A stretch of DNA of 64,000 nucleotides from Phlebopus portentosus (lineage: Eukaryota > Basidiomycota > Agaricomycetes > Boletales > Boletinellaceae). The stretch covers positions 806,001-870,000 of the forward strand of contig JAYXKI010000018.1 of assembly GCA_037892935.1 (NCBI GenBank). Direction: 5' to 3'. The translations under genes and the position numbers were made by a program. The notes beneath the pieces are model-generated. The model saw only the letters and a list, made by a program, of their open reading frames with translations, was not told the origin of the DNA and made no database searches. Positions 38,920 to 62,660 of this stretch are shown here, in pieces (position 1 is the stretch's first letter; every line of letters starts with the position of its first letter).

Positions 38920-41900
38920 TGTAGTGCGCTGCACTAACCTGTACCGGTCCAGCGGCACAGGTCTGTAAGGGCTGTACTCCCCTATGCCATACCCAGGACA
39001 CCTCGTGTACTATTGTCAGCAAACCAGCCTTCACCGCCGTTACCCATAATACAGCCTGCTCAGCGGCCGCCAGACCTTCGGCGGCCTAGGAACAGCACCC
39101 ACGCTGCTGCCACCACCGACCATACGAACCGGCGGCGACGCCTCCACTCCTATCTTATGATCACCTTGTCCCCCCTTCGACCAAATCCTAGTTCCCCTTC
39201 TCCAGCCTCTCTCAAGAACGGTTCCGCCGAATCCAGTGACTCCGGGCTTCGGAAATGCTCGCACGGCGGCCGGACACGCTGCGGTGGATGTATATCGTGC
39301 CATCGCGGAGGTGTATGCCCGCCGCTGTAGTGCGCCGCACTAACCTGTACCGGTCCAGCGGCACAGGCCTGTAAGGGCGGTACTCCCCTATGCCATACCC
39401 AGGACACCCCGCGTACTATTGTCAGCAAACCAGCCTTCGCCGCCGTTACCCATAATACAGCCTGCTCAGCGGCCGCCGGACCTTCGGCGGCCTAGGAACA
39501 GCACCCACGCCGCCGCCGCCGCCGACCATACGAACCGGCGGCGACGCTTCCACTCCTATCTTATGATCACCTTGTCCTCCCTTCGACCAAATCCTAGTTC
39601 CCCTTCTCCAGCCTCTCTCAAGAACGGTTCCGCCAAATCCGGTGACTCCGGGCTTCGGAAGTGCTTGCACGGCGGCCGAACACGCTGCGGCAGATGTATA
39701 TCGCGCCATCGCGGAGGTGTATGCCCGCCGCCGCGCCGGCTGCGTGAACGATAGCCAATCTCAGGTCCATTTCGTTGATTGTTTCATATTCTTATCATCC
39801 CACATTGTACGCCGAGCGCGGTAGCGCGCCCGGCGGCCGTCCGTATATTCCCCCTTTTAGTTTTATTCAACCCCTTGGCGTTTCAGATCCATATAGAGCG
39901 CGCCCTGACCGATCCGAACGGCCCCGACATTCGACACGACGTACCAGCACTCCGCCGTTCCGATTGGGGCGCCCCTAGGTCTTGGTGGCTTGGCAGCGCA
40001 TCTCGGCGGCGGCCCCCGCCGTCGCGGCGCGCCTGTCATGCCTCGCCGCCCGCGGCTTTAAGTGATATTTCTTATCAAGGACTCATAGTATATATAGAGA
40101 GGATGTATCTATCCTAAAAAGTAGCAGATATACACTCTAGAACGCAGCTACCAGAGACCAACCACAAGTAAAGAAGCCTCCTTCAAGAAACCAGTATATA
40201 CAGAGAACCAGACAGCCAGATCGGGCGAACTCCCGGTCACGTGCCCTCGCCGATCCCGTCCTGACGGCGTGGCCCCAGATCTCACAGGATAGAAGCCGCC
40301 GAGCTCATTCGCCGCCCTGGTCGTCTCCCCTCTGCGCAGCTGTCACTCGTCTAGTAACCGCTCCGGGGACTTCCCACTCATATCTGCATCGCCGTCCCTC
40401 TCTCTCTAGCCTCCGCCGCCGCTCGGCCCCTGAACATTTGTGATTCTTCCTCAACGCCTCGACGCAGCCGTCACTCTTCTAGGCATCTGTTATACTTCGT
40501 CGACGCCTCGACGCAGCTGTCACTCTTCTTGTGTTCACCGCTACCGTCGGCGCCGGCGCCCCTTCTCGACTGAGTCCAGTCTCCCACTTCTCGCCGCCTC
40601 CGCGTCGTTCCACCGCCAACACTACTCCCCTTTTAAGTGGTGTCGACTCTCTCTCTCCCGCATCTCCTCTGTGTCGTTCCGACGTCATCTCCCCGACTAC
40701 CAGGCGGAATTGCACTGGTGCGAACCTCCGCCGGCCCCGCACCCAGTCCGCCGCTGCGACCCCTTCGCCGGTTCAGTCGGACTCGGCGATCCCTATACAG
40801 TCGCCGAGGCCCGGATCGCCGCGGCGAGTTATTCGAAGGCGCGGCGGATCTGCCCTAACGGCCAGACCCTTGTACATCTGAGCTGAGTGTCGCTTCTGAA
40901 AGCCTGTAGGTAGTCTGTAGATCTGGTAGGACCTCCCCTTTTTCCTCTCGACACCTTTGACATCACCTCCCTGTGGTCGAACGCCGCCGCCGCCGCCTTT
41001 GTCCCTATCTAGGAGAGTCTGATAGTCTACACCGCCGCGCCGGCTGGGTGAACGATAGCCACTCTCAGGTCCATTTCGTTGATTGTTTCATATTCTTATC
41101 ATCCCACATTGTACGCCGAGCGCGGTAGCACGCCCGGCGGCCGTCCGTATATTCCCCCTTTAGTTTTATTCGACCCCTTGGCGTTTCAGATTCATATAGA
41201 GCATGCCCTGACCGATCCGAACGGCCCCGACGTTCAACACGACGTACCAGCACTCCGCCGTTCCGATTGGGGCGCCCCTAGGTCTTGGTGGCTTGGCGGC
41301 GCATCTCGGCGGTGGCCCCCACCGTCGCGGCGCGCCTGTCACGCCTCGCTGCCCGCCGCTTTAAGTGATATTTCTTATCAAGGACTCATAGTATATATAG
41401 AGAGCATGTATCTATCCTAAAAAGCAGCAGATATACACTCTAGAACGCAGCTACCAGAGACCAACCACAAGTAAAGAAGCCTCCTTCAAGAAACCAGTAT
41501 ATACAGAGAACCAGACAGCCGGATCGGGGGAACTCCCGGTCACATGCCCTCACCGATCCCGTCCTGACGGCGTGGCCCCCGATCTCACAGGATAGAAGCC
41601 GCTGTCACTCATCTAGCAATCGCTCCGGGGACTTCCCACTTATATCTGCATTGCCATCCCTCTCTCTCTAGCCTCCGCCGCCGCTTGGTCCTGAGCATTT
41701 GGGATTCCTCCTCCACGTCCCGACGCAGCCGTCACTCCTCTAGTAATCAATCCCGCGGTCTTCGATTTCTCCCTGCGCCTGAGGCCCCTTTTGTGTTTCG
41801 TCGCCGCCGCTCGGTTCAGATCGTTTGTGATTCTTCCTCAACGCCTCGACGCAGCCGTCACTCTTCTAGGCATCTGTTATACTTCCTCGACGTCTCGACG

Positions 41901-42417
41901 CAGCTGTCACTCTTCTTGTGTTCGCCGCTACCGTCGGCGCCGGCGCCCCTTTTCGACTGAATCCAGTCTCCCACTTCTCGCCGCCTCCGCGTTGTTCCAC
42001 CGCCGACACTACTACCCTTTCAAGTGGTGTCGACGCTCTCTCTCCCGCATCTTCTCTGTGTTGTTCCGACGTCATCTTCCCGACTACCAGGTGGAATTGC
42101 ACTGGTGCGAACCTCTGCCGGCACTGCATCCAGTCCGCCGCTGCGACCCCTTCGCCAGTTCAGTTGGACTCGGCGATCCCTATACAGCCGTCGAGGCCCG
42201 GATCGCCGCGGCGAGTTATTCGAAGGCGCGGTGGATCTGCCTAACGGCCAGATCCTTGTGCATCTGAGCTGAGTGTCGCTTCTGAAAGCCTGTAGGTAGT
42301 CTGTAGATCTGGTAGGACCTCTCCTTTTTCCTCTTGACACCTTTGACATTGCCTCCCTGTGGTCGAACGCCGCCGCCGCCGCCTTTGCCCCTATCTAGGA
42401 GAGTCTGATAGTCTATA
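38920..42417 (+). repeat. Gypsy-3 5' LTR with nested tandem duplications (~3.5 kb)
   Basis: Starts TGTAGTGCGC and ends TCTATA (a decayed TCTACA, as seen at 41031) just before the primer-binding site. A 406-bp unit occurs twice (38920-39325, 39326-39731), then a ~1.3-kb unit twice (39728-41031, 41032-42417). Each large unit has a TATATATAG box (about 40088 and 41392). Repeated proline-rich ORFs here are side effects of the duplication. Confidence 0.7.
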
Positions 42418-43217: not shown

Positions 43218-45674
43218 ATGACCAGCACCCATACTGGCATTCCCGCCGCGCCCCCCGCAGCCTCAGGATCGACCCCGCCGCCCCCCCAACAGCCGTCCCC
43301 CGCCACACCAGCCTATGCCGCACCAGCACCACCCCCCGCGGGCACCTTTCCCCCTCTTCCAGACCTCAGTGACCCAGATACCCATCCATTAAGTGGTCCC
43401 GACCCACCAGTGCTGGGAGCTACAATGCCCTACCCGGGAGACCGCCGCGCGCTGAAGTTCAATGCCTCCGGCGACCCCGCGGAAATCCCCATCTTCTTTA
43501 ACAGAGTCCGGCTATTTGGACGAAGCGCCGGCCTAACAGATGCACAAATGATCACTTGGGCAAGATGCTATGCCGACACTAAAGACGATCAGCTATCGTG
43601 CAAAAGGCCCAAAACAAGAGGAAACGACTTTATGGCATTCAAAGACGCTATCCTAAAGTACTACCCAAACGCTACGACCCAGTACACACTCGGCGACCTC
43701 CACAACCTTATTAACATAAGCCGCAACCAAATTATGCTGAACACCGCCGCCCTCAGCGAATACCATAGGAACTTTATCACCGTCTCCTCATATCTGATCG
43801 ACGCCGGCATGCTATCAGAGTTCGAACAGAAGCACATGTTCAGAGAAGGCCTCCACCCGACGCTAAACAGAGAGCTGGATCTTAATTTGCAGTTTGTCAA
43901 GCACGACCACCCTACCGGCGTGCTCTGGGACATCGACACGGTTGTAAGAGAACTAGAACACATCCTAACCGGCGGCCGCCTCACAACCGCTGACCAACCC
44001 CTGATGTATGCGGCGACAGCGGCCATGCCCACCTATACACAAGTTACGATGTACACGCCGCTGCCGCAACCCGGTGCGCCGGCCTACGGAGTCATCAACC
44101 AACCCCAGGTCAAGCAAGAAGAACCGTGGGTGTCCCTCCTAATCCAGGAAATGCGCGCCCTCCGTGAAGCCACCGAGAAGTCAAACCGCCGCGCTCCGCC
44201 GCCAACTGCAGGAGCCCCGCTGCAGCCCCGACAAGCCAGATTTAACGGAAAATGCGCCGTATGCGCCAGTGTAACGCACTCTACCCGCGACTGTCCCACC
44301 AAGATCTCCCTGATCCAGAGGGGAATCATGCTCGCCGACGCCAAAGGGTACTTATACCCCTCCAATGGCCGACTTCCTCAGGGAGAACCGGGGATGTCAG
44401 TACTGGACAGGATTAATAAGCTCTTCATGGAGAATCCAAACTACGCACCAGTCGGCGTCCAGCTCCCCATTCAGCCCGTATCCGACACGCCGCCAAGAAT
44501 TACTCCGCCGAGGCAGGATCCTACATATCAGGGACAACCACCGACTCAACAATCCATGTATCAGTCACACCCTCCATCACAGGAATCTATGTACCAGGGC
44601 CTCAACCGGGCACCGCCTCCCTTAGCCTACAATACCAATCCACCGAACGGCCTGCCGCCGCGAATCCAGGAATCGAACTACTTCGAGGCTATCACCCCAG
44701 AAGACCCCCCAGACAACGATGCCTGCAATGGAGTCGCACTCCTTTTTGAACAAGAAGAATCCACCGAACAACCGCAGAATGCCTTTGCCGCCGCCGGAAG
44801 ACGGCCAGGCCCCAGAGAAGTTTTCGACGGAATCGAAATCCCCACCAGAAAGCCGCCTCGAGACCCCAACCCGAAATGGGGAGATAACAGCAAGAAAGGG
44901 AAACCACCCGGACAACGCCCGGCCCCGCCGCCGACGCCCTCAGCACCGCACAGGGACGACGCAGCGGATCCGAAGCCACAATACCGAACCACCATACCAG
45001 CATACGATGATGCTGCGGTATCAAACGTTTTCGACAAGATTCTGGACTCGGAAGTCACCCTGCCGATCCGAAGCCTGCTTGCCGCCTCTCCCGAAATCAG
45101 AAAGAAGTGTAAAGAATTTGTCACGGGGCGCCGAGAACTAATTAGGGAAAATCCTGATCACGAGATGGCAATGTACACCTCAATCCCGAGGCCCACCTCG
45201 CCGGTCAACTTCGGTGATGAAGATCCATCCGTCGCCCCGCCAAACATCCCCCTCCACGAAATCGAGGTCTGGCTCGATGATAAATTCGAAGTAAAGGCCT
45301 TGCTCGACTCGGGGTCGACATTTATCGCTGTGCCAAAAGAGGTATGGAAGGACCTCGGCTCCCCGACGATAATGAGCTAAGCAATCACAGTAGAAACCGC
45401 CGACAGACAAACCTCACGCTCGGCGGGACTCATCCCTCACGTCAGACTCACCATAGGCGCCTTCTCTATTGTTGTCCAAGTCCAGGTCGTCGAAAAGGCC
45501 CCCTTTCAGTTACTATTAGGCCGGCCGTTTTTCGTACACACTAGGGCGCAGGTCATAGACGAGGCCGACGGTGAACAGACGCTATACCTTACTCATCCCG
45601 ATACGAATGAAACCATGTCAATCCCGACGATTCAGCGCGGCGCCGGGACAGAAAAACAGCGCCCCCCTAGATAA
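43218..45674 (+). pseudogene. gag: Gypsy-3 Gag-protease (one TAA)
   Basis: ATG 43218; frame to TAA 45672, with one internal TAA at 45378. Proline-rich N-terminus, Gag core from about 43430 (YPGDRRALKFNASGDPAEIP), zinc knuckle CAVCASVTHSTRDC (about 44263), a long disordered region, then an aspartic protease (VKALLDSGSTFIAV, D-S-G at about 45305; LLGRPFF further on). The protease is in the gag frame, unlike Gypsy-1 and -2. The final stop overlaps the pol ATG in TAATG. Confidence 0.85.
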
Positions 45675-45676
45675 TG
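45672..45676 (+). promoter_or_regulatory. TAATG stop-start overlap between gag and pol
   Basis: The gag-frame TAA (45672-45674) shares its last A with an ATG (45674-45676) that opens pol in the -1 frame. This is the arrangement used for coupled termination-reinitiation in some retroelements and viruses. A TAG at 45668 in the pol frame argues against a frameshift just upstream. Confidence 0.6.
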
Positions 45677-48600
45677 ACGTCCCAGCGGCGTCCGCCGGAA
45701 CATATGCGGCGTATACCCCCAACCATACCCGACACATATGTGCTCCATCACGGCCCGGCGACTGTAAATATCGCCTTCAATCCCTGCACCATAGATATCT
45801 CCACCTCATTTTCTGATCGATCCGCCGAAAAGGGTTTCACAGCCCAGAACAAAGCCCAAAAACATCCAGCCTTCTTCATTAACTCTATTTTCGACGATGA
45901 ATCACTTCCCGTACACAACCGAATACCCCGCTCCAATAGCACTCTTAATACCAAGGCCGCTCAACCGGCCGGGCACGCCTACAAGTACAAAAAGGTCGCC
46001 CAACGAACCAAACCTATATCGGCGACCCTTCCAGAGGACTACCGCATCATACGCAAATCACACCCGCAGCCGCTCACAGATCTACCGAAGCTCCCTATTG
46101 ATCCACCGGAGTTCATTCCAGGATGCCACTTTACACAAGAACGCTTCGACGTCCTAGACATCGACCCAACAGGCTTCCTCAGTGAGGAAGAAAAGAACCT
46201 TGCCTACTGGACCCTTCTACAACACGAAGACGGCCTAGCTTGGGACGAAACAGAAAAGGGCTCCCTCGACTATCAATACTTCGCACCGGTTCTAATTCCT
46301 ACTGTCGACCATACGCCGTGGGTAATGAAAAACATCCCTATTCCGCCGGGCATCTTCAACGAAGTGGTCCGCATAATCAAAGACAAAATTAACTCCGGCG
46401 TCTACGAGCCGTCCAATTCCTCTTACCGCTCCCGATGGTTCTGCGTCGTTAAAAAGGATGGAAAATCCCTTCGGCTTGTACACGATCTCCAGCCACTCAA
46501 CAAAGTCTCCATACGCGACCCCTCCATCCCTTACCCCACAGAACACATTGCCGAGACCTTCGGCGGCCATGCCTGCTACACCACACTCGATCTATTCGTC
46601 GCCTTCGACCAGAGAAAGCTCGACGTACGATCCCGCGACCTCACAACATTCTAAACACCTCTCGGCGTGTTTCGCCTCACCTCGATTCCTATGGGATACA
46701 CCAACTCGCAACAAATTATGCACGCCGACGTCACGTTCGTCCTCAAAGATGAGATACCCCACATCTGTATCCCATACATCGACGATATTCCTGTAAAAGG
46801 CCCTAAATCCCGATACGAGCTCGCCGCCGGAAAATATGAAAGCATTCCGGGGAACCCGAACATCCGCCGCTTCATCTGGGAACACCTCAACGATGTCAAC
46901 CGCGTCCTCCAACGTCTTAAAGTAGTCGGCGCCACTGTCTCGGGTAAGAAACTCATCATCGCCGCACCAGAAGCAGTCATTGTAGGACACACCTGTAATT
47001 ACACCGGCCAAGTCCCAGACGCATCCAGGGTCAAGGCGATAATGGATTGGCCGCCGCCGCAGGATGTCCACAATGTTCGGGCATTCTTAGGTACGGCCGG
47101 CGTCCTTAGACACTTCGTGAAGAACTACGCCAGACTATCCGCCGGTCTCAACAAACTACTCTGCAAAGACCAGCCCTTCCTATTTGACGAAGACGCCCGC
47201 CGATCTATGGATCTACTAAAACACGCCATAGCATCCTCTGGCGCCATTCGTTCTATTGACTACGAGTCAGGACAACCTGTCCATTTCTGTGTAGACTCCT
47301 CCGTTCATGGCTACGGCACCATCTTGTTACAGCTCGGCGAAAACGGCGAAAGGGTCCCATCTCATTTCATGTCCGGAACCTGGAACAACAGAGAACGAAA
47401 CTACTCCCAGGCGAAGCTAGAACTCTTCGGCCTCTTCAGAGCTCTATATGAGGCGCGCATATACCTCATCGGCATCGATCACTTTTTCGTCGAAGTCGAC
47501 GCCAGCTATATTAAAGGCATGATTAACAACCCAGACCTCCAACCCAATGCCACTATCAATAGATGGATTGCCGGCATCTTACTTTTCAATTTCACGATCA
47601 TTTATACGCCGGCGCCCAAACACCTCAGCCCAGACGGCCTATCACGCCGCTGCGCCGCACAAACCGATCCGCCGTGAGACAAAGGCTTCAAAGAATGGAT
47701 CGACCATCAATACTCCTTCCTAAACCAAGACCTTTCCGACACAGCCTATATCCCAAACAGCGAACCTGTACAACTCCCTGATCACAAAGCCTCCCAAAAA
47801 GGATTCAAAGACCTCGATTGTATCAAGAAATTTCTCGCCGCCCCATCCCGCCCCGCCGATCTTTCAGACGCCCAATTCAAACAGTTCGTATGCCGAGCCA
47901 CTCGTTTCTTCCTACAGCACGGCGAACTCTACAGAAAGAACGACAAAGGTCACGCCGCACTCGCTATTCCGCCGGAACGCCGAATTTCCATTATCAGAAC
48001 TGCCCACGACGAACTCGGCCACAAAGGCTTCTTCTCTGTCAGAACAACGATCCAAGACCGATTCTGGTGGCCAGGAATGCATCAGGACATCAAATGGTAT
48101 ATCAGAACCTGCCACCGATGCCAAACGAGGCAGTTTACGAAAATATATACCACGCCGCAAAGCCCGACGCCTGCGCCGCTATTCTCCAGGGTGCATATAG
48201 ACGTGATGTTAATGCCGCCCTCCGGCGGATTCAAGTATATCGTTCAGGCTCGAGACTCGCTCACCGGATACCCCGAATTCCGAATGCTGTGCAAAGATAA
48301 TGCCGCCTCGATAGCACGCTTCGTTTTCGAAGATATTTTGTCAAGATGGGGACGAGTCGAGGAGATCGTAACCGACAACGGCGCCTCATTCTCTAAGGAC
48401 TTACCCTGCCTGCTCGCCAAATACAATGTCCAGCACATCCGAATCTCGCCGTACAACTCAAGAGCCAACGGAATCATTGAACGGCGACACCGGGACCTTA
48501 GAGAAACCCTAATGAAGCTCGCCGACGCAAGCCCAGACAAGTGGTCCCAGCATATATACCACGCCATTTGGGCTGAACGAATCACGATCCAACGCCGCAC

Positions 48601-49159
48601 AGGCTATAGCCCATACTTTATGGCCCACGGCGTCAAACCAGTACTCCCCTTCGACCTCGCCGAACAGACGTACATCTCGCCGGCGGTCACCTCCAAGATG
48701 TCCGACACACAACTCATCGCGGTGAGAGCAAGGGCACTCCAGAAACGACCCGAGGACCTCCAATGAGTCAAGGAATCTGTCATCCAGGGACGCTTCAAAT
48801 CCATACAGGACTTCGAGAAAACCCACGCCGCAACAATTAAGGATTACAATTTCGCCCCCGGCTCACTTGTGCTGGTCAGGAACTCCCAGATAGAAAACGA
48901 GCTGAACAGGAAGACAAAGCCGAAATACCTAGGGCCCATGATTGTCGTGCGGCAAACCAAAGGAGGATCCTACGTTCTCGCCGAAGCAAACGGCGCCATT
49001 TCAGCACTTCGTTATGCAGCATTCAGAGTTATCCCTTACCATGCACGCACTCGAATCATCGACTCAGTTGAAGACCTCACTCAGAAATCCACGCCGGAAC
49101 TCGACAACCTAGCACAAGAGACTGCGGCGGATGACCTAGACGCCGAATCCAACTTATGA
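45674..49159 (+). pseudogene. pol: Gypsy-3 pol: RT, RNase H, integrase (three nonsense codons)
   Basis: One frame from ATG 45674 to TGA 49157, broken by TAA 46652, TGA 47675 and TGA 48764. RT has LVHDLQPLN, TLDLFVAFDQRKLD and the catalytic YIDDIPVKGP (about 46776). RNase H has CVDSSVHGYG. The integrase HHCC finger is HDELGHKGFFSV...CHRCQTRQ (about 48007-48130), followed by the core (HIDVMLMP, VTDNGASF, NGIIERRHRD) and a C-terminal GPF/Y-like region (KPKYLGPMIVV). No chromodomain. It is clearly a relative of Gypsy-4 pol. Confidence 0.9.
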
Positions 49160-49597: not shown

Positions 49598-51262
49598 CTA
49601 TCCACGGCGTTCACCCTGGGCCTTTTCCTCCACCCCCCTACCCGCACTCTCTCCCGCCAACGTCGACTCCATCCCCTCCAGCTGCCGGCGGAGAGCGAGG
49701 ACCTCCTGCTGCACCAGGAAGGTCACGTCCGACTCCAAGATATCGCACTGGTGGTGCGATACCCGGCACGCCTGGCACAGGAGCGCCGGCGGGCGCCTCG
49801 TGCACATCTCCCCACGCCCGATGCACCGCTCGCACCCCGGCGACACGAACTCGAGGAGGCGGCGGCTCTGACCCCTGGGGAGCTGCCCCACCCTCTCGAA
49901 CTCCCAACCCCCCTCCTCCCTCTGAATATTATAGTCAGAGAGTGTCGAGAACAAAATTCAAGACAGCACTCACCGCCCCGTCCCTTCTTCCTGTCGCCTC
50001 CTCTTTCGCCCTTCCCCCACCCGAGGCCGCCGCTCCCGGCACTCTTGCTCGTTTCGCCGGGGGCTCGACCACCAGCTCACGTATGCGCTTCGGAAGGGGA
50101 GGCACCTAGAAACGAAACATGTCAGTGAAGAATAAGATCCAGGACATAAAACACACATCGACATATACCTCCTTTCCACTCGACCTTTTCGCTTGCGTTG
50201 ACCCCTCATCAGACTCAACCTCAAGAGTAATGGTCTTTCCCGTGACCGTCCCCGAGCGTCCCCCTCGCGTCACTCGACCACTCTCCCCCTTGAGCGTCTC
50301 GCTGGACGAACCCGCCACCTCAAGACCAGGGATCGATGACCCAGGAAGAGTAATCGTCTTTCCCGTCGCCGGCCTGGCCGCGGGACGCGCCTGCACCTTC
50401 GCTTTGGTGCTCGTTTTAGGCGCCGCGACCTAAGAAGATATTATCAGAGACAGTAAAAAAAAAAAAAAAAAAAAAAACAAAATTCAAGACAACGACTTAC
50501 CAGGTTCCCCGCCTCATCGTGCCCTGAGGACCTACAGAAGGCCTCGATGACCTCCAGGCCCCCAACTCACAGGGTGGCGAGCGTCTTGAGGAAGAAGGCT
50601 TTCGCCTCCTCGGCCACCTTCGCTGCGCTCCGCTTCGCCTCCTCACGAGCCTCCTCCTCCCGGCGCTCGGCCAGCCTCTCCGCGACGCATCGGAGGCGAT
50701 TCACCTCCGACTGGGCGGCCTTGTCCAACGCCTCGGCGGCGTCCTTAGCCTCCCTGGCAGCCATCCGCACCACCGTCGCCCGGTTCACCAACCACCTACC
50801 CGCGCAATAATATTCGGGCTTTTCAGCCCTCGCGTCATCGGATAGCGCGGGGAAGCGCTCCCCAAGCCCCTTCTGAAAAAGTAAACCAGATCGTCAGCTC
50901 ACACGGTTATTATCAAGGGAACGCAAATTTACCAAGAGCCCATCGAGCTCATCAGCAGCGGGCCCCTCATCGTTTCGGGCCCGCTCGATCCACCCCCTCA
51001 CCGCCGTAATGGCCACCCACACGGCTGCATCCAGTTCTTCCCCCCCCTCCCCCCCCTCCCCACCCTCCTCCTCCGTCTCCCCCTGCGACTCCGGCAGGAC
51101 CTCTTGCCCGCTGGGGGCCCACGACATCCCGCCTGCAGCAGGAGCCCCCGTCGCTGCCTCGGCGTCCACCTCTATTTGGTCAGAGGGAGCCTCCGACCCC
51201 TCCCTGCTGTTGTTGCTGCTGCTGTCGCTGCTGCTGCTGACGCTGAGAATCGTTGGCGCCAT
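49598..51262 (-). CDS. Antisense spliced gene of Gypsy-3: Zn2Cys6-like nuclear protein
   Basis: A six-exon model, all junctions GT...AG and in phase: 51262-50933, 50872-50571, 50531-50501, 50429-50169, 50105-49974, 49921-49598; 459 residues, no stop. N-terminus: Ser/Glu-rich, acidic. Exon 2: charged coiled coil (RCVAERLAERREEEAREEAK). Exon 5: two basic clusters (PKRIREL, PAKRARV), likely nuclear localisation signals. Exon 6: cysteine cluster at about residues 382-411 (CERCIGRGEMC...CQACRVSHHQC, spacing C2C6C8C2C6C), fitting the fungal Zn2Cys6 DNA-binding pattern, then a short coiled coil. Introns are 39-71 bp; the 39-bp one is unusually short. It lies opposite to and downstream of pol. Likely DNA-binding or regulatory; function inferred. 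Confidence 0.7.
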
Positions 51263-51864
51263 GGTGGAAAGAGAAAAAGAGAAACGGGGAACTCAGACAT
51301 GAGTCCCCGTCGTCTATATCCTTGCCGCACCCAATTCAAACTCCGATTTCAGCCCTCCATACATGCGACCTCCCCGCCCCCTTTTTACCAATCAATTATC
51401 AAATCCTCCCCACTGCTCCGCTGCAATCTCCACTCAAATTCCACAAACCCCTCGGCGACTCTCCCCCCTCCAAAACTCGCCGGAACAATCCGCCGATCCC
51501 CGCCACAACACAGCCCCAACCTTCCAGACCCCTGCCAAGCCGGCCGATACAACATTCTACGCCGATCCCCCTCGCCGATCATCAAATATCGCCGCACACC
51601 CTACCCTAGCCGTACCTACACCCATTAACGAATCCTCAACCTATATGTCACGACCTACACCACCCTAGTTAACTACCAGGCATCCCCGACTGGTTCCTGG
51701 ACCGCCAAAAGCCCGCCGAATTGTATTTCCGATGTACCACTACCCCTGACTACAAGGCCATTGTATCCATATCTGGTACCAGATCAAGATCATGATATGA
51801 CGACACCTTCCATGATTAACCATTTAAACTTTACTTCCGAACTCCCTTCTAAATCGAAGCTCGT
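51263..51864. other. Region upstream of the Gypsy-3 antisense gene
   Basis: Probable promoter region of the minus-strand gene. It is C-rich and has no clear TATA box. Plus-strand ORFs here (for example 51363-51668) are proline-rich and show no domain. Confidence 0.4.
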
Positions 51865-52162
51865 CCCTCCGACGCCCCGCCTATACGAAACTCCTTCGCC
51901 CAGGCCCCCTTCTATTTGAAGATCGCTTCGCCCCACGCCGCTACAGGCCACCATACCTGAACTACCGGCAAACCAGCCTCGCCGCGAGCCTCCCATCCCA
52001 CTCACTTGTCCCGCCGACGACCCGCCTATACGAAACTCCTTCGCCCAGGCCCCCTCCCACTCGAAGATCGCTTCGCCCCACGCCGCTACAGGCCACCATA
52101 CCTGAACTACCGGCAAACCAGCCTCGCCGCGAGCCTCCCATCCCACTCACTCGTCCCGCCGA
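51865..52162. repeat. Two tandem copies of a 145-bp unit
   Basis: The unit containing CTATACGAAACTCCTTCGCC starts again exactly 145 bases later (51881 and 52026), and the copies are nearly identical. The array ends where the Gypsy-4 LTR begins. No spacers or short palindromic repeats, so not a CRISPR. Confidence 0.85.
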
Positions 52163-53790
52163 TGAAGAGTAAGTCTGAAGCTTGGGAACGTACGGAGTCG
52201 TTACGACCAGTTCCGTGGTGTTCCGACTGGTTTCGCTCGGTTTCGACTGGTTTCGCTCGAACGAGTGAACTTAGCAAGAACGCCATAGTCCAGATGGCAC
52301 GTGCACCGTTCTTTGATCGGCCATCAAGACGGGAGAATCACGGCATCGAGTTTGCACGCGTCGATCACAAGTCTCCGGACCTCGGATCCGCATTCCAGAC
52401 AAAGAGATTTGACCCTGCAACCTCGTCCTCAGTCCCTCTCCTTTGTTAAACATCGCAGACTTACTTTGTCAGGCTAGCCAGAGCCCTTCCGAGTCGTTTC
52501 CCCGAGTTCCGCTTCGTTCCGCTCAAAGAGACCCGGTTCCGAAGGTTCCGCACATTTTCTGACCTTTCTATATGCGTCCCCTTTAATCCATTATGCTCTC
52601 GTTCCAGACATGCTTAGTATTGTTTCTTTTGACCTATGTGTCCCTTAAACCATTCCTATGCGCTCCTCTCCTTTGTAGATAGCGATATGCGTTCCCTTTT
52701 CCTTATGACGTAGGTTCTCTGACCGCTGGGAGGCTCAGTCTTGGACGTTTAGTATAAATATAGCACGACTCTCGTAGTAGAGGGAGAGCTTAGTCGGAGC
52801 TGAGTGGGAGCTTAGCTTGCAGTTCTCACATCGTCTCAAAGCCTCTCGACCTCTAGTCTACTTGTTCGTAGTGGACTCTCTCGTCTCTATAGTCTAATAT
52901 ACGACATTTCGTGTTCTGTACAGTCGATCGGTGATCTCTCTTCGCAGTAGAGCCGTTCGCGCGTTCGTATAGTTCGCCGTCATCGTATAAAGGCTTCTCT
53001 ATCTTCTCTCACCCGAAAGAAGACCCCCTCACGTGTTTCGATCCGTTTCGCCCGGTTTCGCTCGTAACCCAGTTACTCTGCGTGCCACTCGCATTCGGTC
53101 TCGCAACACCTTCCCCTCTCCATTGTCGTCGGGAAAGGACACCATATCATCCCTTTCCTCTTGACTTTCCACTCTCCGCTTCCTCAAGACCAGCCCGGTG
53201 CTATTCCGCATCGTTTCGATCGGAAACGGTCGGTTTCATCGTCCCACACATATCCTTCGATTCTCTCAGTCCCCTTCCGTCATCGTTGTGCACCTCCATC
53301 CTTCGCATCACATTACGACACACTCAGCTATTGTCCTTCGTCCATCGTATCGCGTTTCGAACCGTTACGCCGCGTTCCGACACTTAAGACTACGAGTGAG
53401 ATCGACTGCAGTCGCTTACCAGTGTGTTAGCACAGTCGATTAGTCACGTTCGGGTTGGTGGTTCGACTAGCGTAGCTTAGTTAGTTTAGTTCTTGTGCCT
53501 TGGGTTAGTCGGCTTTAGTCCAGAGCTCGCAGCTGAGCCGGAGAGTCGATTTAGCCTTCGCACCGCCACCGTCGATCTCGGAAGAAGTTCACCCTCGGAA
53601 TTCTTCCTCGAGCGCTTCCCTCATATCCCCGGTTCTCACCAAGCCCTTCCATTGTATATCCCTATTTCCCTCCATTCCTTCGTGCCCTTAGCTCGGGTGT
53701 AATTCTCTGCTGACCGTTTGAAGGTATTCTAGGGCAGCCCCTCGAACTATACACTCCCTGTCCGGCATCAGAACGTCCACAGGAGTTTCA
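52163..53790 (+). repeat. Gypsy-4 5' LTR (1628 bp)
   Basis: TGAAGAGTAAG...GGAGTTTCA. A clear TATA box TATAAATA lies at 52753-52760, giving a U3 of about 600 bp and a long R-U5 of about 1 kb. It is rich in GTTTCG and GTTCCG repeats. A 95-codon frame (about 52162-52449) is open in all three long copies in the window. Confidence 0.95.
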
Positions 53791-53792
53791 AG

Positions 53793-53809
53793 TGGAGCCC
53801 ACGGCGAGG
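53793..53809 (+). promoter_or_regulatory. Gypsy-4 primer-binding site
   Basis: TGGAGCCCACGGCGAGG, two bases after the LTR, matching the Gypsy-3 site except for one base. Confidence 0.8.
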
Positions 53810-53909
53810 GGGATTTCACTGTCCAACCATTACGAATACCCCGCCAAATTCGTCTAGCAGACGAGTTACACGTAGCCAATCCGCTCGAGTCCCTATAGAA
53901 CATCAGGTT

Positions 53910-56303
53910 TTGCCGCCGACTCGAAGGCCTAGGATTGTCAATCGCAACATACGTTCCGCTGCGGAAAACGCGGAACACAGCGAAACACCCTTGCGACAAT
54001 CCGTTAGCGCCATTCCTTCCAACACCGATTCCCTAGATCATTCCCCATCTACCATCGCCGATTCAGAACTCCCCAACCTCTCATCCGTGCCAGCTTCCAC
54101 CCCAGGCTCACCGAACAGACCAGCTAGCCCGCCTACCAATTACCAACTACCTACCGGAACTCAACAGATCTTAGCCAGCAACGCAGCGATAATAGCTCGT
54201 CTGTCTGCTAACGCTAACGTATTACAACAACTTACAAATCGACAAACCGCAATGGCGTACCAACCGCCCTCGCGTGGGGACAAACGTGCCCCAACGTTTG
54301 ACGGCTCAGAACCAAAGGAACTCCCTAGGTTCTTCGAAGACGTTGCAGAAATAGCAAGACAGGCCGCGTGGAACGATAGAGATCACGTCCGAAAGTTCTT
54401 GTACTATGCGAAGACCGACGTCGCGGAACTTTGGGAGACTACCGACGAGATTAACGACCCGAACCCTGATGTGGAGACGGTGAAGAGAGAGATTATAGCT
54501 CTATACCCGAGTCTCACGGCAGGGAAACGCTACTCCAAAGGAGAACTGGAGCATTTGGTCGTAGAACGGGCGAAGAAAGGGATCAAGAACCGAGAAGACC
54601 TAGGCGAATATCATCGAGAATTCGTCAGGCGCTCTAAGTATCTTATAACGAACGGAAAGATCTTGGAGTCCCAAGCTGACGAGATGTTCCTGATGGGAAT
54701 TACAGGAGACCTTAGAGAGGCGCTAATTCGTCGTATCGAGATCAAGCTACCAGATCACGATTCGTCTACGCCTTACAAGATTAAGGACGTGCTCGAACAT
54801 TCGAATTTCGTGCTGGGAGGAAAGATTGTGGGCAGTTTCGGCAGTAACTTTCCACCCCCAGCTACCGGAGAAGCTTCGACAAGTATCGTGAAGAAGGAAG
54901 AAGTGGATTTGGCCAAGGTAATGGATACGTTGAAGAGTTTTCAGGTTACGCTCGACGCCCTGAGCAAGGGGAACGTTCCGCATCGACCAGGGGCGGAACG
55001 TAGCGAAACTCCGCGAAACCCAGTTTGCAACTTCTGCGGCGAAGCAGGACACTATATTCGATCGTGTACGAAGGTTCTCGAGTACATCCAAGCCGGAAAG
55101 TGCGTTAGGAGCCAGGATGGAAGGATTGTGTTGCCGAACGGCGGTCTCATTACGAGGTCGCTACCGGGGAACAATCTCAAAGAACGAATCGATAGCTTTC
55201 ATGCTAAAGCCCCGGCGACACACACAGTAGGGATGGTCGAGTCGGTCACGCCCGCATATAGCCATCAAGCTGGTCCAGCGTACGCATATAGTCACGACGA
55301 AGAAGATCAGGACGAGCAGGAAAACTACGACATCGAACGTTTGGAGATTTTGATTAACGAGGCGAAGAAGAAGGCAGCTGGTGGACGAAGAACGAAGCCC
55401 GATGGCGTAGAGATCCCTAGAGTTCAGCCTCATAAGAAGGCGCAGGCGAAACCGCAGCCCGCGCCACCGAGTGGCGCGCGGCCCTCGACAAGGTCACTCC
55501 AGTCACCGCAGCAGGACGACATTACCAGGAAATCACAACCCCAGTATAAATACGTCGTACCAATAGAAGACTCGAGCGCAGTCTCCAACGTTCTGACTCG
55601 TACCCTCGATACCCCTATCACCATCAGCCAACGTGAACTCCTCTCAATCGCCCCGGACGTTAGGAAACAGATGAAGGAGTTGACGACGGCGAAGAGATAC
55701 AACGCGGCTGAAGTCAAATATGGTGAGGTCGTGGATGATTCACTTACGTTACAAGTTGGGCGTTTCGCGTCGGAACAAGTCGAAACAGGCGAAACGCTTT
55801 CGACGGAAGAAATACTGGCGCTCAGTGGACAAGGCGTTGCCGCAGAGGCATCCATGCCCCTCAGGACCGTTAGCGCGTTGATTGAAGACACTCTGGAAGT
55901 CGAATGCGTGCTCGACCAGGGAGCCGTAGTGTGTCTGCTCCGCGAAGACGTGTGGGAGAAGCTTCAGATACCCCTATCCCCTGACAAAGGAATGATCCTC
56001 GAGACAGCAGACGCAGCTAGGTCATCTACCATTGGCATGATCTCTAATGCGAAGTTCACGATAGCCGGGATCGACGTTTCGCTCCAAGTGCAAGTCGTTC
56101 CGAACGCTCCCTTCCAGGCTTTGTTGGGGAGACCGTTTTTCGCTATTACGGAGTGCGAAACGAAGGATTACACGTCAGGTGACCAACATATCACCTTAAC
56201 GGACCCGAACGATCGCAGAAAGCAAAGCAAAGTGGCCACCGGAATTCGAACGATCGCGCGAGGACCACTTCCAAAGGGTTTTCCGCAAGCGTCGAGGAAC
56301 TGA
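53910..56303 (+). CDS. gag: Gypsy-4 Gag-protease polyprotein, intact
   Basis: Open to TGA at 56301. 53910 is a TTG; the frame is open further upstream to the primer-binding site but no ATG is found there, so the true start is uncertain. From 53910 it has 797 residues: a disordered N-terminus, Gag core (RGDKRAPTFDGSEPKELPRF, from about residue 120), zinc knuckle CNFCGEAGHYIRSC at about residue 373, an acidic/Gln-rich linker, then an aspartic-protease-like domain with LDQGAVVCLL (Asp about 669) and LLGRPFF. The usual D-T/S-G is D-Q-G here. The C-terminus reads PKGFPQASRN, over the slippery site. Confidence 0.9.
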   Translation: MPPTRRPRIVNRNIRSAAENAEHSETPLRQSVSAIPSNTDSLDHSPSTIADSELPNLSSVPASTPGSPNRPASPPTNYQLPTGTQQILASNAAIIARLSANANVLQQLTNRQTAMAYQPPSRGDKRAPTFDGSEPKELPRFFEDVAEIARQAAWNDRDHVRKFLYYAKTDVAELWETTDEINDPNPDVETVKREIIALYPSLTAGKRYSKGELEHLVVERAKKGIKNREDLGEYHREFVRRSKYLITNGKILESQADEMFLMGITGDLREALIRRIEIKLPDHDSSTPYKIKDVLEHSNFVLGGKIVGSFGSNFPPPATGEASTSIVKKEEVDLAKVMDTLKSFQVTLDALSKGNVPHRPGAERSETPRNPVCNFCGEAGHYIRSCTKVLEYIQAGKCVRSQDGRIVLPNGGLITRSLPGNNLKERIDSFHAKAPATHTVGMVESVTPAYSHQAGPAYAYSHDEEDQDEQENYDIERLEILINEAKKKAAGGRRTKPDGVEIPRVQPHKKAQAKPQPAPPSGARPSTRSLQSPQQDDITRKSQPQYKYVVPIEDSSAVSNVLTRTLDTPITISQRELLSIAPDVRKQMKELTTAKRYNAAEVKYGEVVDDSLTLQVGRFASEQVETGETLSTEEILALSGQGVAAEASMPLRTVSALIEDTLEVECVLDQGAVVCLLREDVWEKLQIPLSPDKGMILETADAARSSTIGMISNAKFTIAGIDVSLQVQVVPNAPFQALLGRPFFAITECETKDYTSGDQHITLTDPNDRRKQSKVATGIRTIARGPLPKGFPQASRN
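56276..56282 (+). promoter_or_regulatory. Candidate -1 frameshift site (GGGTTTT)
   Basis: G-GGT-TTT is in gag phase, 18 bases before the TGA stop. The -1 frame is open from 56183 and runs into the 1127-codon pol frame. The same heptamer sits at the same place in the distantly related Gypsy-1. Confidence 0.75.
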
Positions 56304-59300
56304 TTGAGAGAAATCGGCGAGACGAGAATGGTAGTAACCAATTGCCGGTTCAGGTATTTTCTTATGATTTCGAATTTATCTCACACATGATCCCATCTCT
56401 TTTCAACCAACGATTGCCTTATTTATTAAACAAAAATTGCTATACTACTGACAAAGAAGAACGGTCATATCGTTCATGTGTTTTAGAAACCCCAGAAGAA
56501 GAAGATGCGGCAGTAATGGCTTACAAACGAGTAGCGCAGAAAGTCAGGCCGATCCCGGGAGTCCTTCCAGAAGAATACAGGATCGTGCGAAGGCAGCATC
56601 CGGATCCGTTGAGAGGGATGCCCGAGATGCCAATTGTACCAAAGCCGTTCGAACCCACGGGTCGTGTAACCGCCGAAAGGATGGAAGCACTGAAGATCGA
56701 CGAGAATACCTTTCTGTGGCCGGCGGAGAGGTTATTAGTGAAGAATCTGATTATGTTGCAGGGAGGAGCGTTAGCATGGACCGAATCCGAACGCGGAACA
56801 CTCGATCCGACGTATTTCAACCCGATACGCATTCCCACGATACCGCATATACCGTGGCAGCACAAGAGCATTCCAATTCCCCCGGGAATTCATGACAAGG
56901 CCCTCGAGCTTATTCGAGAGAAGATTCGCAACGGGGTTATTGAACCGTCGAATTCGTCGTATCGATCTAGATGGTTTTGCTTGGTAAAGAAAGACAAGGA
57001 AACGTTACGATCCATTATCGACTTGCAGGATCTTAATGCGGTTACGGTCAAGGACTCGGCAGTACCACCGAACGTCGAAACGATCGCAGAGAGCAGTGGT
57101 GGACGAGCTTGTTACACGGAGTTGGATTTATTCGTTGCATTCGACCAAAGAAAGCTTGACGAACACTCACGAGATCTTACTACGTTCCAGACACCCTTGG
57201 GAACATTTCGAATGACGGTTCTACCAATGGGATACACCAATTCCTTGCAGATTATGCATAACGACGTGGCCTTTATCCTTCAGGACGAGATTCCGCACGT
57301 TACGAACCCTTTCGCAGACGATGCGCCCGGTTTAGGTCCGAAATCGCGATACGAGTTACCAGACGGTTCGTACGAGACCATACCGGGAAACTCCGAGATT
57401 CGTCGTTTCGTGTATGAGCATATATGCGATGTGAACAGGATTTTGCAGCGAATGAAGGCGGTAGGTGGAACGTTTTCAGGAAAGAAGTTGGTGCCGTGTG
57501 TGGAGTCAGCGGTATTCGTTGGACACAAGTTAACGTACCAGGGACGCGAGCCAGACGATTCGAAAGTGCAGAAGATACGAGATTGGCCGCCATGTAGAAC
57601 GCTGACGGAAGTCAGAGGATTTCTGGGAACGGTAGGAGTCCTTCGAATTTTCGTCAAGGATTATTCGAAACTCGCTCGCCCGTTGTACCGCATGACAAGG
57701 AAGAACCAGATTTTCGCGTGGACAGACGAAGAACAGAACGCAATGGACGAACTAAAGCAAGCCGTTATTATTTGCCCGGCGCTGTGCGCAATCGACTACG
57801 CGTCAGACAACGAAGTAATATTGGCGGTAGACTCGTCTATTATTGGAGTTGGTTGGTATTTAGGACAAGAGCACTCGGATGGAAGGCGAAGGATCAATCG
57901 TTTCGGCTCTATTAACTGGAATCAGACCCAGGCATCGTATTCACAGCCGAAAATCGAGTTATACGGCTTATTTCGAGCATTGCACGCGATGCGACTGTAT
58001 CTCATCGGAGTCCAGAATCTAGTAGTCGAAATGGACGCAGCATACATCAAGGGGATGATCAACAATCCCGACCTGCAGCCCAATGCGACCATTAACAGAT
58101 GGATCGCAGGTATCCTTCTCTTCAGTTTCAAGCTCAGACACATCCCAGCAGCCGATTTCCGATGTACCGATGGATTATCCAGACGAAGAGCAGCTGAAGA
58201 AGACCCCCCTCCGGATGAAACGTACGAAGACTGGGTAGACGAAACGTACGGTTTTGCGATAGAAGAGCCGGTTTCGACATACCAAGTAGCGCAACAGGGC
58301 GGAACACCTAGCGAAACAGCGACAGAGAACCTATTTCCTTCTACGGAATCCGCGAGAAGGAAGGATAGCCGCTTAGATGACGTCACGAAGCTAATCACGC
58401 ATCTCACACGCCCAGACAATCTTAGCGATAGTGGCTATGTGAAGCTAATCAGGTACGCAGCTGACTTCTTCGTGAAGGGAGGCCGTCTGTGGAGAAAGGC
58501 GCGAAACGGCCGGCACCAAGTCGTAATAGAAGCGAAACGCAGGTGGGACCTAGTCAAGCAAGCTCACGACGATCTAGGACACAAAGGAATTTTCTGCACT
58601 CGAATGCGACTGCTGGAGAGATTTTGGTGGCCGTCATTAGGACAGGACGTAAAGTATTTCGTGCGCACCTGTCATGAGTGCCAGATACGCCAGACGAAGA
58701 ATATTCTTATCCCGCCAAACGTACCGGAGGTAGCCCCTCTTTTTCAACGCATCCATATTGACTCGAAGGTTATGCCGAAATCGAGTGGATTCCGGTATAT
58801 CGTGCATGCGCGTTGTTCGTTAACCGCGTATCCCGAATTTAAACTTCTTCGAGAAGAAACTGGTAAGACCGTAGGCCAGTTTATCTTTCAGAACCTTTTG
58901 TGTCGATATGGAGCATGCCCCGAAATCGTTACAGATAACGGAACACCATTCGTCGCCGCACTAGATTACTTGAAGACGCGGTATCACATCAACCACATTC
59001 GGATTTCGTCATACAACTCACGCGCAAATGGATTAGTCGAACGCAGACATTTCGACGTACAGGAAGCCTTGATTAAAGCTGCAGACGGTAATGACAAGCG
59101 TTGGAGTGATCACGCTGACTCGGTATTTTGGGCAGAAAGAATCACGATCAACAGAGCAACAGGAATGTCCCCGTATTACATGGCCCATGGAGTCGAAGCG
59201 GTTTTGCCCTTCGACCTCGCAGAAGCAACATACCTAGCACCGCCGCTCGATTCGCCAGTTACGACGTCGGAACTCATCGTAATACGTGCGAAACAACTCC

Positions 59301-59725
59301 AGAAACGTCCAGAAGAGTTGGATCGCGTTGCGAAACTCGTCATGAGTGCAAGGCATGCATACGCGAAGCAGTTTGCCGAGGTGGAGAAGCATAGAATCAA
59401 GGACTACGACTTTCAGCCAGGAAGCCTCGTACTCTTGCGAAACACGCGTATCAAGATGGAACTCAATCGTAAAACGAAGCCCCGCTATTTAGGCCCCTAC
59501 GTGGTAGTTCGACGCACCCAAGGCGGTTCGTATATCGTCGCCGAACTCGATGGAGCGGTTTCGAAACTCCGAATAGCAGCGTTTCGCCTGGTTCCGTACT
59601 TCCCGCGTTCGCATTTGACTGTTCCGGTGACCAAGCTCATTGGATCGGACGAAGATGATGACATACCCGAAATAGAAGATTCGCCAGAGAAATTCCCTGA
59701 CGATGAGTCCCAAAATTCCGATTAA
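56282..59725 (+). CDS. pol: Gypsy-4 Pol: RT, RNase H, integrase, intact
   Basis: The frame is -1 to gag and open from 56183; no ATG at its beginning, so it is probably made by frameshift. From 56342 there are 1127 residues. RT has SIIDLQDLN, ELDLFVAFDQRKLD and a catalytic FADDAPGLGP (about residues 324-327; Tyr replaced by Phe). RNase H has AVDSSIIGVGW. The integrase HHCC finger is HDDLGHKGIF...CHECQIRQ; its core has Asp 807 (HIDSKVM), Asp 865 (VTDNG) and Glu 900 (GLVERRH). The C-terminal GPF/Y-type motif is KPRYLGPYVVVRR. No protease in this frame and no chromodomain. Confidence 0.93.
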   Translation, partial: SASVEELIERNRRDENGSNQLPVQVFSYDFEFISHMIPSLFNQRLPYLLNKNCYTTDKEERSYRSCVLETPEEEDAAVMAYKRVAQKVRPIPGVLPEEYRIVRRQHPDPLRGMPEMPIVPKPFEPTGRVTAERMEALKIDENTFLWPAERLLVKNLIMLQGGALAWTESERGTLDPTYFNPIRIPTIPHIPWQHKSIPIPPGIHDKALELIREKIRNGVIEPSNSSYRSRWFCLVKKDKETLRSIIDLQDLNAVTVKDSAVPPNVETIAESSGGRACYTELDLFVAFDQRKLDEHSRDLTTFQTPLGTFRMTVLPMGYTNSLQIMHNDVAFILQDEIPHVTNPFADDAPGLGPKSRYELPDGSYETIPGNSEIRRFVYEHICDVNRILQRMKAVGGTFSGKKLVPCVESAVFVGHKLTYQGREPDDSKVQKIRDWPPCRTLTEVRGFLGTVGVLRIFVKDYSKLARPLYRMTRKNQIFAWTDEEQNAMDELKQAVIICPALCAIDYASDNEVILAVDSSIIGVGWYLGQEHSDGRRRINRFGSINWNQTQASYSQPKIELYGLFRALHAMRLYLIGVQNLVVEMDAAYIKGMINNPDLQPNATINRWIAGILLFSFKLRHIPAADFRCTDGLSRRRAAEEDPPPDETYEDWVDETYGFAIEEPVSTYQVAQQGGTPSETATENLFPSTESARRKDSRLDDVTKLITHLTRPDNLSDSGYVKLIRYAADFFVKGGRLWRKARNGRHQVVIEAKRRWDLVKQAHDDLGHKGIFCTRMRLLERFWWPSLGQDVKYFVRTCHECQIRQTKNILIPPNVPEVAPLFQRIHIDSKVMPKSSGFRYIVHARCSLTAYPEFKLLREETGKTVGQFIFQNLLCRYGACPEIVTDNGTPFVAALDYLKTRYHINHIRISSYNSRANGLVERRHFDVQEALIKAADGNDKRWSDHADSVFWAERITINRATGMSPYYMAHGVEAVLPFDLAEATYLAPPLDSPVTTSELIVIRAKQLQKRPEELDRVAKLVMSARHAYAKQFAEVEKHRIKDYDFQPGSLVLLRNTRIKMELNRKTKPRYLGPYVVVRRTQGGSYIVAELDGAVSKLRIAAFRLVPYFPRSHLTVPVTKLIGSDEDDDIPEIEDSPEKFPDDESQNSD

Positions 59726-60171
59726 ATCATTCATTTCCCTTCATATATGCTCCTTACTTATTTCCGATTCTCTCTCTCTCCTCTGATCAATTCTAATCTT
59801 CCAATTCTCCTTCTATAGTTTCGTCTCTGCTAGCGTGATCCACAATAGGATCTAACGCGTGTACTTTTACTTAATACGCAGTTCCGCACGGTTTCGCCGT
59901 TCAAAACAGCGGAACGACGGCGAAACGCCTCATTTCACTTCGTATCAGTTTCCTTTCATCCTATTCCTTGAATTCCTTGATCTATTCTTCTAGCCTTCAC
60001 TCAGTCTCGCTCGATCGCGCGAAAATTCACAAAAACCGAAACAAAATCGTATAAATTAACTATAAAAACAACTATGTACAGTACAAGTTATTTTTCTTTT
60101 TCTTTTGTCCTTTTCTTTTTCTATTTTACAAAAGTCCGACCAGGACATAGAGCATACGCGATGATTATACT
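59726..60171. other. Convergent spacer of Gypsy-4
   Basis: 446 bp between the end of pol and the end of the antisense gene. A T/C-rich run (TTTTTCTTTTTCTTTTG near 60090) parallels the T-rich run in the Gypsy-3 spacer. GGAAC and CGAAAC motifs cluster at 59881-59930. Confidence 0.5.
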
Positions 60172-60691
60172 CTATTCCCGAGCCCTACCTTTCCCCTTCG
60201 ACTGACGAACCCTCTCCACTTCCCCTCTATCTTCCTCTTCCTCGTCTTCACCTTCCCCCGTCTTCACCCCAGCCAACTCGAGCAGCAGACGACGATCCGC
60301 GTGCGCCTGCGCTACGAGGACGCTGAATTCGTTCAGCATCCGGGACAGAACCTTGTCCCGGTGATCCATCCGCGCCAGCACGAACTGCAGCTCGGATTCC
60401 CCGACCTCCCGCTGCAGAGCCTCATGCTCGACGCGACCACCCACAGATCTGGCCGCCAGAGCCGTGACTTTCCGGCGTTTTGCCTCCCGATCGCGCGCCT
60501 CCCGAGCTGCCTTACGCTTTGCGGCTACAGCCCTGCCCTTCGTGGCTAGACTACAGCCCTTCGCCTGCTTCAAGCACGGAGCGCAGGTCCTCTGCGGAAG
60601 ACCCACGCAATCACGGCCACGCTTCTGGCACTGGTCGCACGGAACCCGATGACGAACGCGCCCATCGCCCAATCGTTCGTCACCATCGTCG

Positions 60692-60733
<42 letters not shown>

Positions 60734-62532: not shown

Positions 62533-62660
62533 GTTGGAGAATGAAGAAGAGATGACAGCGGAAGAAAATTTGGACGCGACGCATTATGCTTCGAAACTCC
62601 CACGCGTCGGATTGAGATGGGAGTGACCGCGGACGGTCACTATTTCATGAACCCGGGAGA
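62533..62660. promoter_or_regulatory. Antisense-gene promoter region and Gypsy-4 polypurine tract
   Basis: 128 bp between the antisense ATG and the 3' LTR. A purine-rich ACCCGGGAGA touches the LTR and probably primes plus-strand synthesis. The antisense promoter must be here or in the LTR. Confidence 0.5.

Follow-up and report, generated by a model that had tools for sequence, protein, structure and literature searches.

The window, by which we mean the whole 64,000-nucleotide stretch of DNA that was analysed, contains a Ty3/Gypsy element, Gypsy-3, into which a second element, Gypsy-4, has been inserted, and each of the two carries an additional gene on the strand opposite to gag-pol (Table 1). 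As the first-pass annotation of the sequence had stated, the pol of Gypsy-3 is interrupted by three in-frame stops; the open frames end at positions 46654, 47677, and 48766, and in many other copies of the element the pol frame is open over 1162 amino acids. The 5′ LTR region of Gypsy-3 (38920–42415) contains internal direct duplications of approximately 0.4 kb, plus copies spaced approximately 1.3 to 1.4 kb apart, unlike copy L014, which has one LTR unit of approximately 1.7 kb. Judged from copy L014, approximately 2.2 kb separates the antisense gene from the 3′ LTR; this stretch includes 145-bp tandem repeats, the number of which varies among Gypsy-3 copies, with two in the window and more in copies L025 and L026.

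Table 1. Features of Gypsy-3 and Gypsy-4 in the window (positions are those of the window)
Feature	Position	Strand	Remarks
Gypsy-3 pol frame	45671–49159	+	Three in-frame stops
Gypsy-3 antisense gene	49598–51262	−	Five exons and four introns; CDS of 1419 nt in the window copy
Gypsy-3 antisense exons, five-exon model	51262–50933, 50872–50501, 50429–50169, 50105–49974, 49921–49598	−	Phase correct
Gypsy-3 antisense gene, true introns	50932–50873, 50500–50430, 50168–50106, 49973–49922	−	GT-AG in 18/18 copies
In-frame stop, window copy of Gypsy-3 antisense gene	50567–50569	−	Inside false intron 2, 50570–50532
KR-x-R basic motif (NLS-like), Gypsy-3 protein	50043–50054	−	
Cys6 motif, Gypsy-3 protein	49745–49834	−	C-x2-C-x6-C-x8-C-x2-C-x6-C
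Two 145-bp tandem repeats	51860–52149	+	Between antisense gene and 3′ LTR of Gypsy-3
Gypsy-4, inserted into Gypsy-3	52161–64000	+	3′ LTR passes window end, then Gypsy-3 sequence resumes
Gypsy-4 gag-protease and pol	53733–59725 (gag-protease 53733–56303, pol 56183–59725)	+	Both open
Gypsy-4 antisense gene	60172–62532; exons 62532–62272, 62219–61845, 61797–60172	−	Three exons
Cys6 motif, Gypsy-4 protein	60553–60639	−	C-x2-C-x6-C-x7-C-x2-C-x6-C
KRRK basic motif (NLS-like), Gypsy-4 protein	60469–60480	−	Position derived from frame

The Gypsy-3 antisense gene lies between the integrase and the 3′ LTR and opposite to gag-pol, the position originally assigned to it, and its end is approximately 440 nt from that of the pol frame (gene 49598, pol 49159) in a convergent arrangement. 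Its limits, with the ATG at 51262 on the minus strand and a stop codon ending at 49598, were also as had been claimed. Six exons had been joined in the first-pass annotation into a gene without a stop; these six exons do join in phase to give 459 residues, but the second of the introns is false, whereas the other four were kept in 18 of 18 copies. This 39-nt “intron 2” (50570–50532) is coding in the relatives, and the six-exon model was rejected for that reason; two public proteins of S. sanghuang (P0001 and P0002) include the residues that its removal would excise. Since the segment is coding and hides an in-frame stop, the gene is correctly modelled with five exons and four introns, and the copy in the window is a broken one. 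Thus, the claim that the gene lacks stops did not survive: once intron 2 is read as coding, the window copy stops at 50569–50567. In the alignment this stop was private to the window copy, and a sense codon was present there in the other 17 of the 18 full-length copies. We concluded that the Gypsy-3 antisense gene is real and that one of its proposed junctions was wrong.

When the window's genome (38.4 Mb in 23 contigs) was searched with the last exon of the Gypsy-3 gene, 33 matches of 81 to 100% identity were found. Twenty-four of the 33 copies were retrieved, 18 of them full length and six partial or interrupted (L029 to L032 were partial); as the 18 came from the 20 best-matching of the 33, they make a favourable sample. 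All eight splice-site dinucleotides and the stop codon were kept in each of these 18 copies and the ATG in 17, and no intron-free copy was seen among them. An uninterrupted frame with both ATG and stop was present in six copies, and one more had the open frame without the ATG; the remaining 11, the window's included, carried stops or frameshifts. Seven copies had a length not divisible by three, and in six of these the first stop came after a poly-G tract of varying length. Conservation of the frame in other copies, which had been suggested as a check on the gene, held for the last exon, stop-free in 31 of the 33 matches, but the whole gene was open with an ATG in only 6 of 18.

The Gypsy-4 insertion looks very recent, because its LTRs were 100% identical in both of the overlapping pieces that were compared (1342 and 389 nt) and both gag and pol are open. 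Pfam domains found in the two frames were DUF4100, aspartyl protease, and zinc knuckle in gag-protease and RVT_1, RNase H, and Integrase_H2C2 in pol, and no chromodomain match was obtained in pol at E 0.5. The DUF4100 match lies in the gag-protease frame at 53733–56303; no paper treating DUF4100 together with a retrotransposon was found in the literature searched. The Gypsy-4 antisense gene begins approximately 127 nt from the 3′ LTR, and its frame was open in copies L037 and L038 over 730 and 724 amino acids, respectively. The window copy carries a stop at 61611–61609, within a poly-Q tract, despite the identical LTRs (in the pieces compared) and the open gag and pol. Intron 1 was bounded by GT-AG in six of eight copies, the remaining two of which do not align there; intron 2 had its AG in all eight and its GT in seven, one copy being without the standard donor site. 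The same two junctions were present in a protein of S. weigelae (P0007, 731 amino acids). A search with the last exon gave 68 close matches in the window's genome (47 without a stop) plus 27 distant ones, 22 of which adjoin a third type of integrase, 57 to 80% identical to that of Gypsy-4; we named this family Gypsy-5. Its antisense gene has three exons and encodes 600 residues; the introns were checked in three of the five copies retrieved (L034 and L045 were partial), and both were GT-AG in all three, with the frame open in two. The integrase of Gypsy-3 was about 45 to 52% identical to those of Gypsy-4 and Gypsy-5, which were approximately 76% identical to each other.

To place these genes relative to the integrases of the three families, we used 119 clade integrase matches from searches that scored 113 of 503 and 96 of 504 candidates. 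Among the matches listed, 112 of 128 genes had a clade integrase no more than 5 kb away and lay on its downstream side in antisense orientation (31/33 for Gypsy-3, 58/68 for the close Gypsy-4 set, and 23/27 for the distant set), and 112 of 119 clade integrases had a downstream antisense gene. Of the other 16 genes among these matches, 14 had no clade integrase in the 5 kb around them and 2 were close to one but arranged differently. The best 150 of 482 matches to the Pfam integrase zinc-binding domain served as the control; all of them lay clear of the clade integrases, and when they were treated in the same way two had a downstream antisense gene and six had any such gene within 5 kb. We concluded from these results that the antisense gene is a regular part of one Gypsy clade and not of Gypsy elements generally. 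It agrees with the aORF-3R type in its place between pol and the 3′ LTR, in being antisense to gag-pol, and in its occurrence in most copies of the family (112/119 clade integrases among the matches listed). One locus (C3:2959398–2960129; L035:2276–3630), the exon structure of which was read by eye only, encodes a protein of the same Cys6 type without a clade integrase within 5 kb, among the matches listed; its best other matches in the genome were element genes (best E 2e-5, approximately 30% identity). This gene is a possible host source or a domesticated copy.

The cysteine cluster reported for the product of the last exon was borne out as C-x2-C-x6-C-x8-C-x2-C-x6-C. The fungal Zn2Cys6 pattern is C-x2-C-x6-C-x5-12-C-x2-C-x6-8-C, and the Gypsy-3, Gypsy-4, and Gypsy-5 proteins each matched it exactly once; for a 119-amino-acid peptide with exactly six randomly placed cysteines, the chance of spacing of this type is approximately 6e-7. 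The six cysteines were invariant across the aligned sequences of the three families, from which P0002, P0003, and P0008 were excluded; these are the three of the nine public relatives that, as annotated, are without an intact Cys6 motif. Motifs of the form K-[KR]-x-[KR] occur in the proteins of all three families alike. The initial description of an intron-containing, element-borne antisense gene with a zinc-cluster-like cysteine motif can therefore be extended to three families, with the correction that the window copy has a stop. A match to the Pfam Zn_clus family (PF00172), proposed as a further check on the product of exon 6, reached 12 of the 21 bits needed (E 0.24) and so fell below the cut-off; Zn_clus gave no match in the Gypsy-4 pieces or in the six public relatives scanned with Pfam, and none of the 27 Zn_clus matches in the genome was within 3 kb of an element gene. 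The bZIP family was absent from the Pfam matches of the antisense proteins scanned. A TFIIA match on P0005 (E 3.2e-7, 31.1 of 36.2 bits) was set aside, as it was below the cut-off and covered poly-Q and acidic stretches.

Structure models of the proteins were of low confidence (pLDDT 49.5 and 67.5). In the model of Gypsy-3 exon 6 the C-x2-C pairs coincided with helices, after which came a long helix, and all four of the model's PDB matches, among them HAP1 and Pho7, were to Zn2Cys6 DNA-binding domains, with every Foldseek E-value greater than 1. For the Gypsy-4 model nothing relevant was matched by Foldseek or VIA, and a PDB sequence search with the last exon of Gypsy-4 gave 14 matches to E 10, the best at 0.043, with no zinc-cluster protein named. 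DNA binding by the Gypsy-3 protein is only suggested, by its cysteine spacing and by low-confidence structure matches; the gene product is probably a nuclear zinc-cluster-like protein.

Protein relatives, all annotated as “hypothetical protein,” came from four Sanghuangporus species: the Gypsy-3 gene has them in S. sanghuang and S. vaninii, the Gypsy-4 gene in S. sanghuang, S. baumii, and S. weigelae, and the Gypsy-5 gene in S. sanghuang. Judging from these protein matches, the host of the elements is very probably a Sanghuangporus. No relatives outside Sanghuangporus were found among proteins by a search that required shared five-residue words and says little about other fungi; likewise, two scans of viral contigs with the integrase queries found no relatives, the collection being viral and saying little about other fungi.

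We compared synonymous and nonsynonymous changes across copies with counts that allow for base change and CpG context; a 40-column poly-G stretch of Gypsy-3 was excluded, as were Gypsy-4 copies L036 and L042, which have no start region, so that six of the eight Gypsy-4 copies were used. At sites variable in at least two copies, the omega-like ratio in the true frame was 0.70 for Gypsy-3 (p 0.07) and 0.56 for Gypsy-4 (p 0.005), a combined synonymous excess of z 3.1, whereas reading that strand in its other two frames gave 1.03 to 1.75. Sites variable in one copy only, which are expected to be mostly neutral, gave 0.80 for Gypsy-3 (p 0.11) and 0.74 for Gypsy-4 (p 0.01), and one sense-strand frame of Gypsy-3, the family for which sense frames were computed, gave 0.79. 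Because these single-copy sites and this sense frame also show an excess, part of the synonymous signal may be base-composition bias. The dN/dS check recommended at the outset thus returned a synonymous excess in the true frame, but Gypsy-3 taken alone was weak. Retention of introns and cysteines across three diverged families is the stronger argument.

Our best explanation, on which our own judgement is evenly divided, is that the clade is ambisense and that the antisense gene encodes a trans-acting nuclear regulator of the element's own LTRs, the role being one that we propose for the protein. Gag-pol occupies one strand and the convergent second gene, between the integrase and the 3′ LTR, the other; the second gene would be transcribed from the 3′ side and then spliced. 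The short distance between the Gypsy-4 antisense start and the 3′ LTR suggests that the promoter is probably in or next to the LTR. The product would be nuclear, and its zinc-cluster-like domain, together with the helix that follows, may bind DNA as a dimer. The protein would act in trans, most likely on its own LTRs, and would control how strongly the sense strand is transcribed, in the manner of HBZ of HTLV-1 on its own 5′ LTR; a nuclear DNA-binding product of this kind could tune the transcription of all copies in trans. As the gene is antisense to the genomic RNA, its introns would not be spliced from the reverse-transcribed template, and this would explain why they persist. Both antisense genes in the window are broken, including that of Gypsy-4 with its identical LTRs. 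This counts against the explanation in that insertion can do without an intact copy in cis, but it fits a trans-acting product. We counted CGG and CCG pairs in the LTRs. The Gypsy-3 LTR unit (L014:6878–8592, on the reverse strand of that locus) had 26 direct CGG pairs versus 7.7 in shuffles (sd 3.1) and 29 CCG-CGG pairs versus 13.8 (sd 3.8); in the Gypsy-4 LTR the CGG-pair counts, CCG-CCG pairs excepted, were within approximately 1.5 sd of the shuffles. The shuffles preserve dinucleotides only and the Gypsy-3 LTR has CCG runs; the enrichment is at most a lead and possibly reflects those runs only.

The same element-borne protein might instead act after transcription or at integration, as a DNA-binding tether that guides or permits integration or as a nuclear-import or chaperone factor, and not as a regulator of the LTRs. 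The anatomy, the Cys6 motif, the basic motif, and the long helices would all be the same, and a Gypsy-4 pol without a Pfam chromodomain match leaves a place for some other targeting part. We nevertheless consider this unlikely: no feature that was tested points to integrase or gag, and a zinc-cluster-like motif followed by a helix is what dimeric DNA-binding domains such as those of HAP1 and PPR1 contain. A host zinc-cluster gene captured by the ancestor of the clade and now of little function, or an outside relative that is a domesticated element gene, would account for the Cys6-type gene at C3:2959398–2960129, which among the matches listed has no clade integrase within 5 kb; but retention at 112 of 119 integrases (among the matches listed) in three diverged families is hard to understand without a function for the element, and an origin by capture does not exclude function. 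As a full account of the gene, we regard capture or domestication as quite improbable.

It is also conceivable that the antisense RNA matters and not the protein, convergent transcription restraining the element through double-stranded RNA or interference. The convergent ends of pol and the antisense gene (49159 and 49598) agree with this, and control by antisense RNA has been discussed for other elements (in the part of PMC7264820 available); such an explanation, however, does not predict that six cysteines persist between families with little other sequence in common, nor that splice sites are conserved or that the true frame shows a synonymous excess, and it seems to us improbable. Least credible of all is that chance open frames in GC-rich DNA were simply joined by the reader of the sequence. 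In favour of this, one of the five introns first proposed proved false, and the DNA here is GC-rich and contains low-complexity runs; the copies nevertheless refute it, since the introns and the Cys6 motif are found again in all three families and in proteins annotated for related species. A fuller form of the ambisense explanation, in which a whole clade of Ty3/Gypsy elements of basidiomycetes is made up of units with two genes on two strands that encode their own spliced antisense zinc-cluster transcription factor, a counterpart of HBZ, and in which antisense placement lets the introns stay, is a possibility that we hold tentatively, a little short of evenly balanced. If the protein regulates its own LTRs, these LTR retrotransposons would have a self-encoded transcriptional switch; should the proposal hold, it would further show by what means introns can stay in a retroelement, and it would offer zinc-cluster-like genes a possible route between elements and hosts. 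It also provides a concrete protein family to seek when mushroom genomes are annotated.

The predicted proteins resemble fungal Zn2Cys6 domains (HAP1, PPR1, Pho7) in the spacing of the cysteines and, in the exon-6 model, in the layout of the helices. In the Zn2Cys6 family the zinc cluster is usually N-terminal; unlike those proteins, the Gypsy proteins miss the Pfam Zn_clus cut-off and have the motif near the C-terminus. Among fungal elements, Boty-like elements of Botrytis cinerea reportedly carry an antisense gene, brtn (Zhao et al. 2011). The available parts of PMC7264820 and PMC8365987 place brtn of Boty between pol and the 3′ LTR, so the suggestion that such genes were not known in fungi has to be narrowed, although no spliced zinc-cluster version was found in the literature searched. 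The likeness of our elements to the Boty-like ones, fungal Gypsy elements with an antisense gene between pol and the 3′ LTR, is one of position (PMC7264820); a Boty-like gag-pol, unlike the Gypsy-4 pol with no chromodomain match at E 0.5, has a CHROMO domain, according to the portion of PMC4227169 available, and its host is an ascomycete. In “LTR Retrotransposons in Fungi” (PMC3248453), neither “antisense” nor “zinc” is used in the main text, and a spliced, zinc-cluster-type antisense gene marking a fungal Gypsy clade was not found in the literature searched, which was mostly outside subscription papers. Antisense genes between pol and the 3′ LTR are thus already known; the spliced, zinc-cluster-like, clade-wide form was not found in print.

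The aORF-3R genes of plants, exemplified in the available parts of PMC7264820 and PMC11963269 by gene23 of maize Grande, rice RIRE2, and Silene Retand with TRP28, are likewise additional antisense genes between pol and the 3′ LTR that occur in most copies of a family, and for some of their products a nuclear location or DNA binding has been shown or predicted. Approximately half of the Retand clusters, like Gypsy-3, have tandem repeats in the corresponding region (same sources). The plant genes belong to plant lineages, and a Cys6 zinc-cluster motif such as that found here is absent from the descriptions compared in those sources; neither “intron” nor “zinc” occurs in the main text of either paper. 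The nearest functional parallel would be HBZ of HTLV-1, a comparison that presumes the regulation proposed here and implies no homology. According to the part of PMC10186651 available, HBZ is an antisense gene expressed from the 3′ LTR in spliced and unspliced forms, and its product is a nuclear factor that down-regulates the 5′ LTR. HTLV-1 is a retrovirus of people and HBZ has a bZIP domain, whereas the Gypsy proteins described here have the Cys6 motif.
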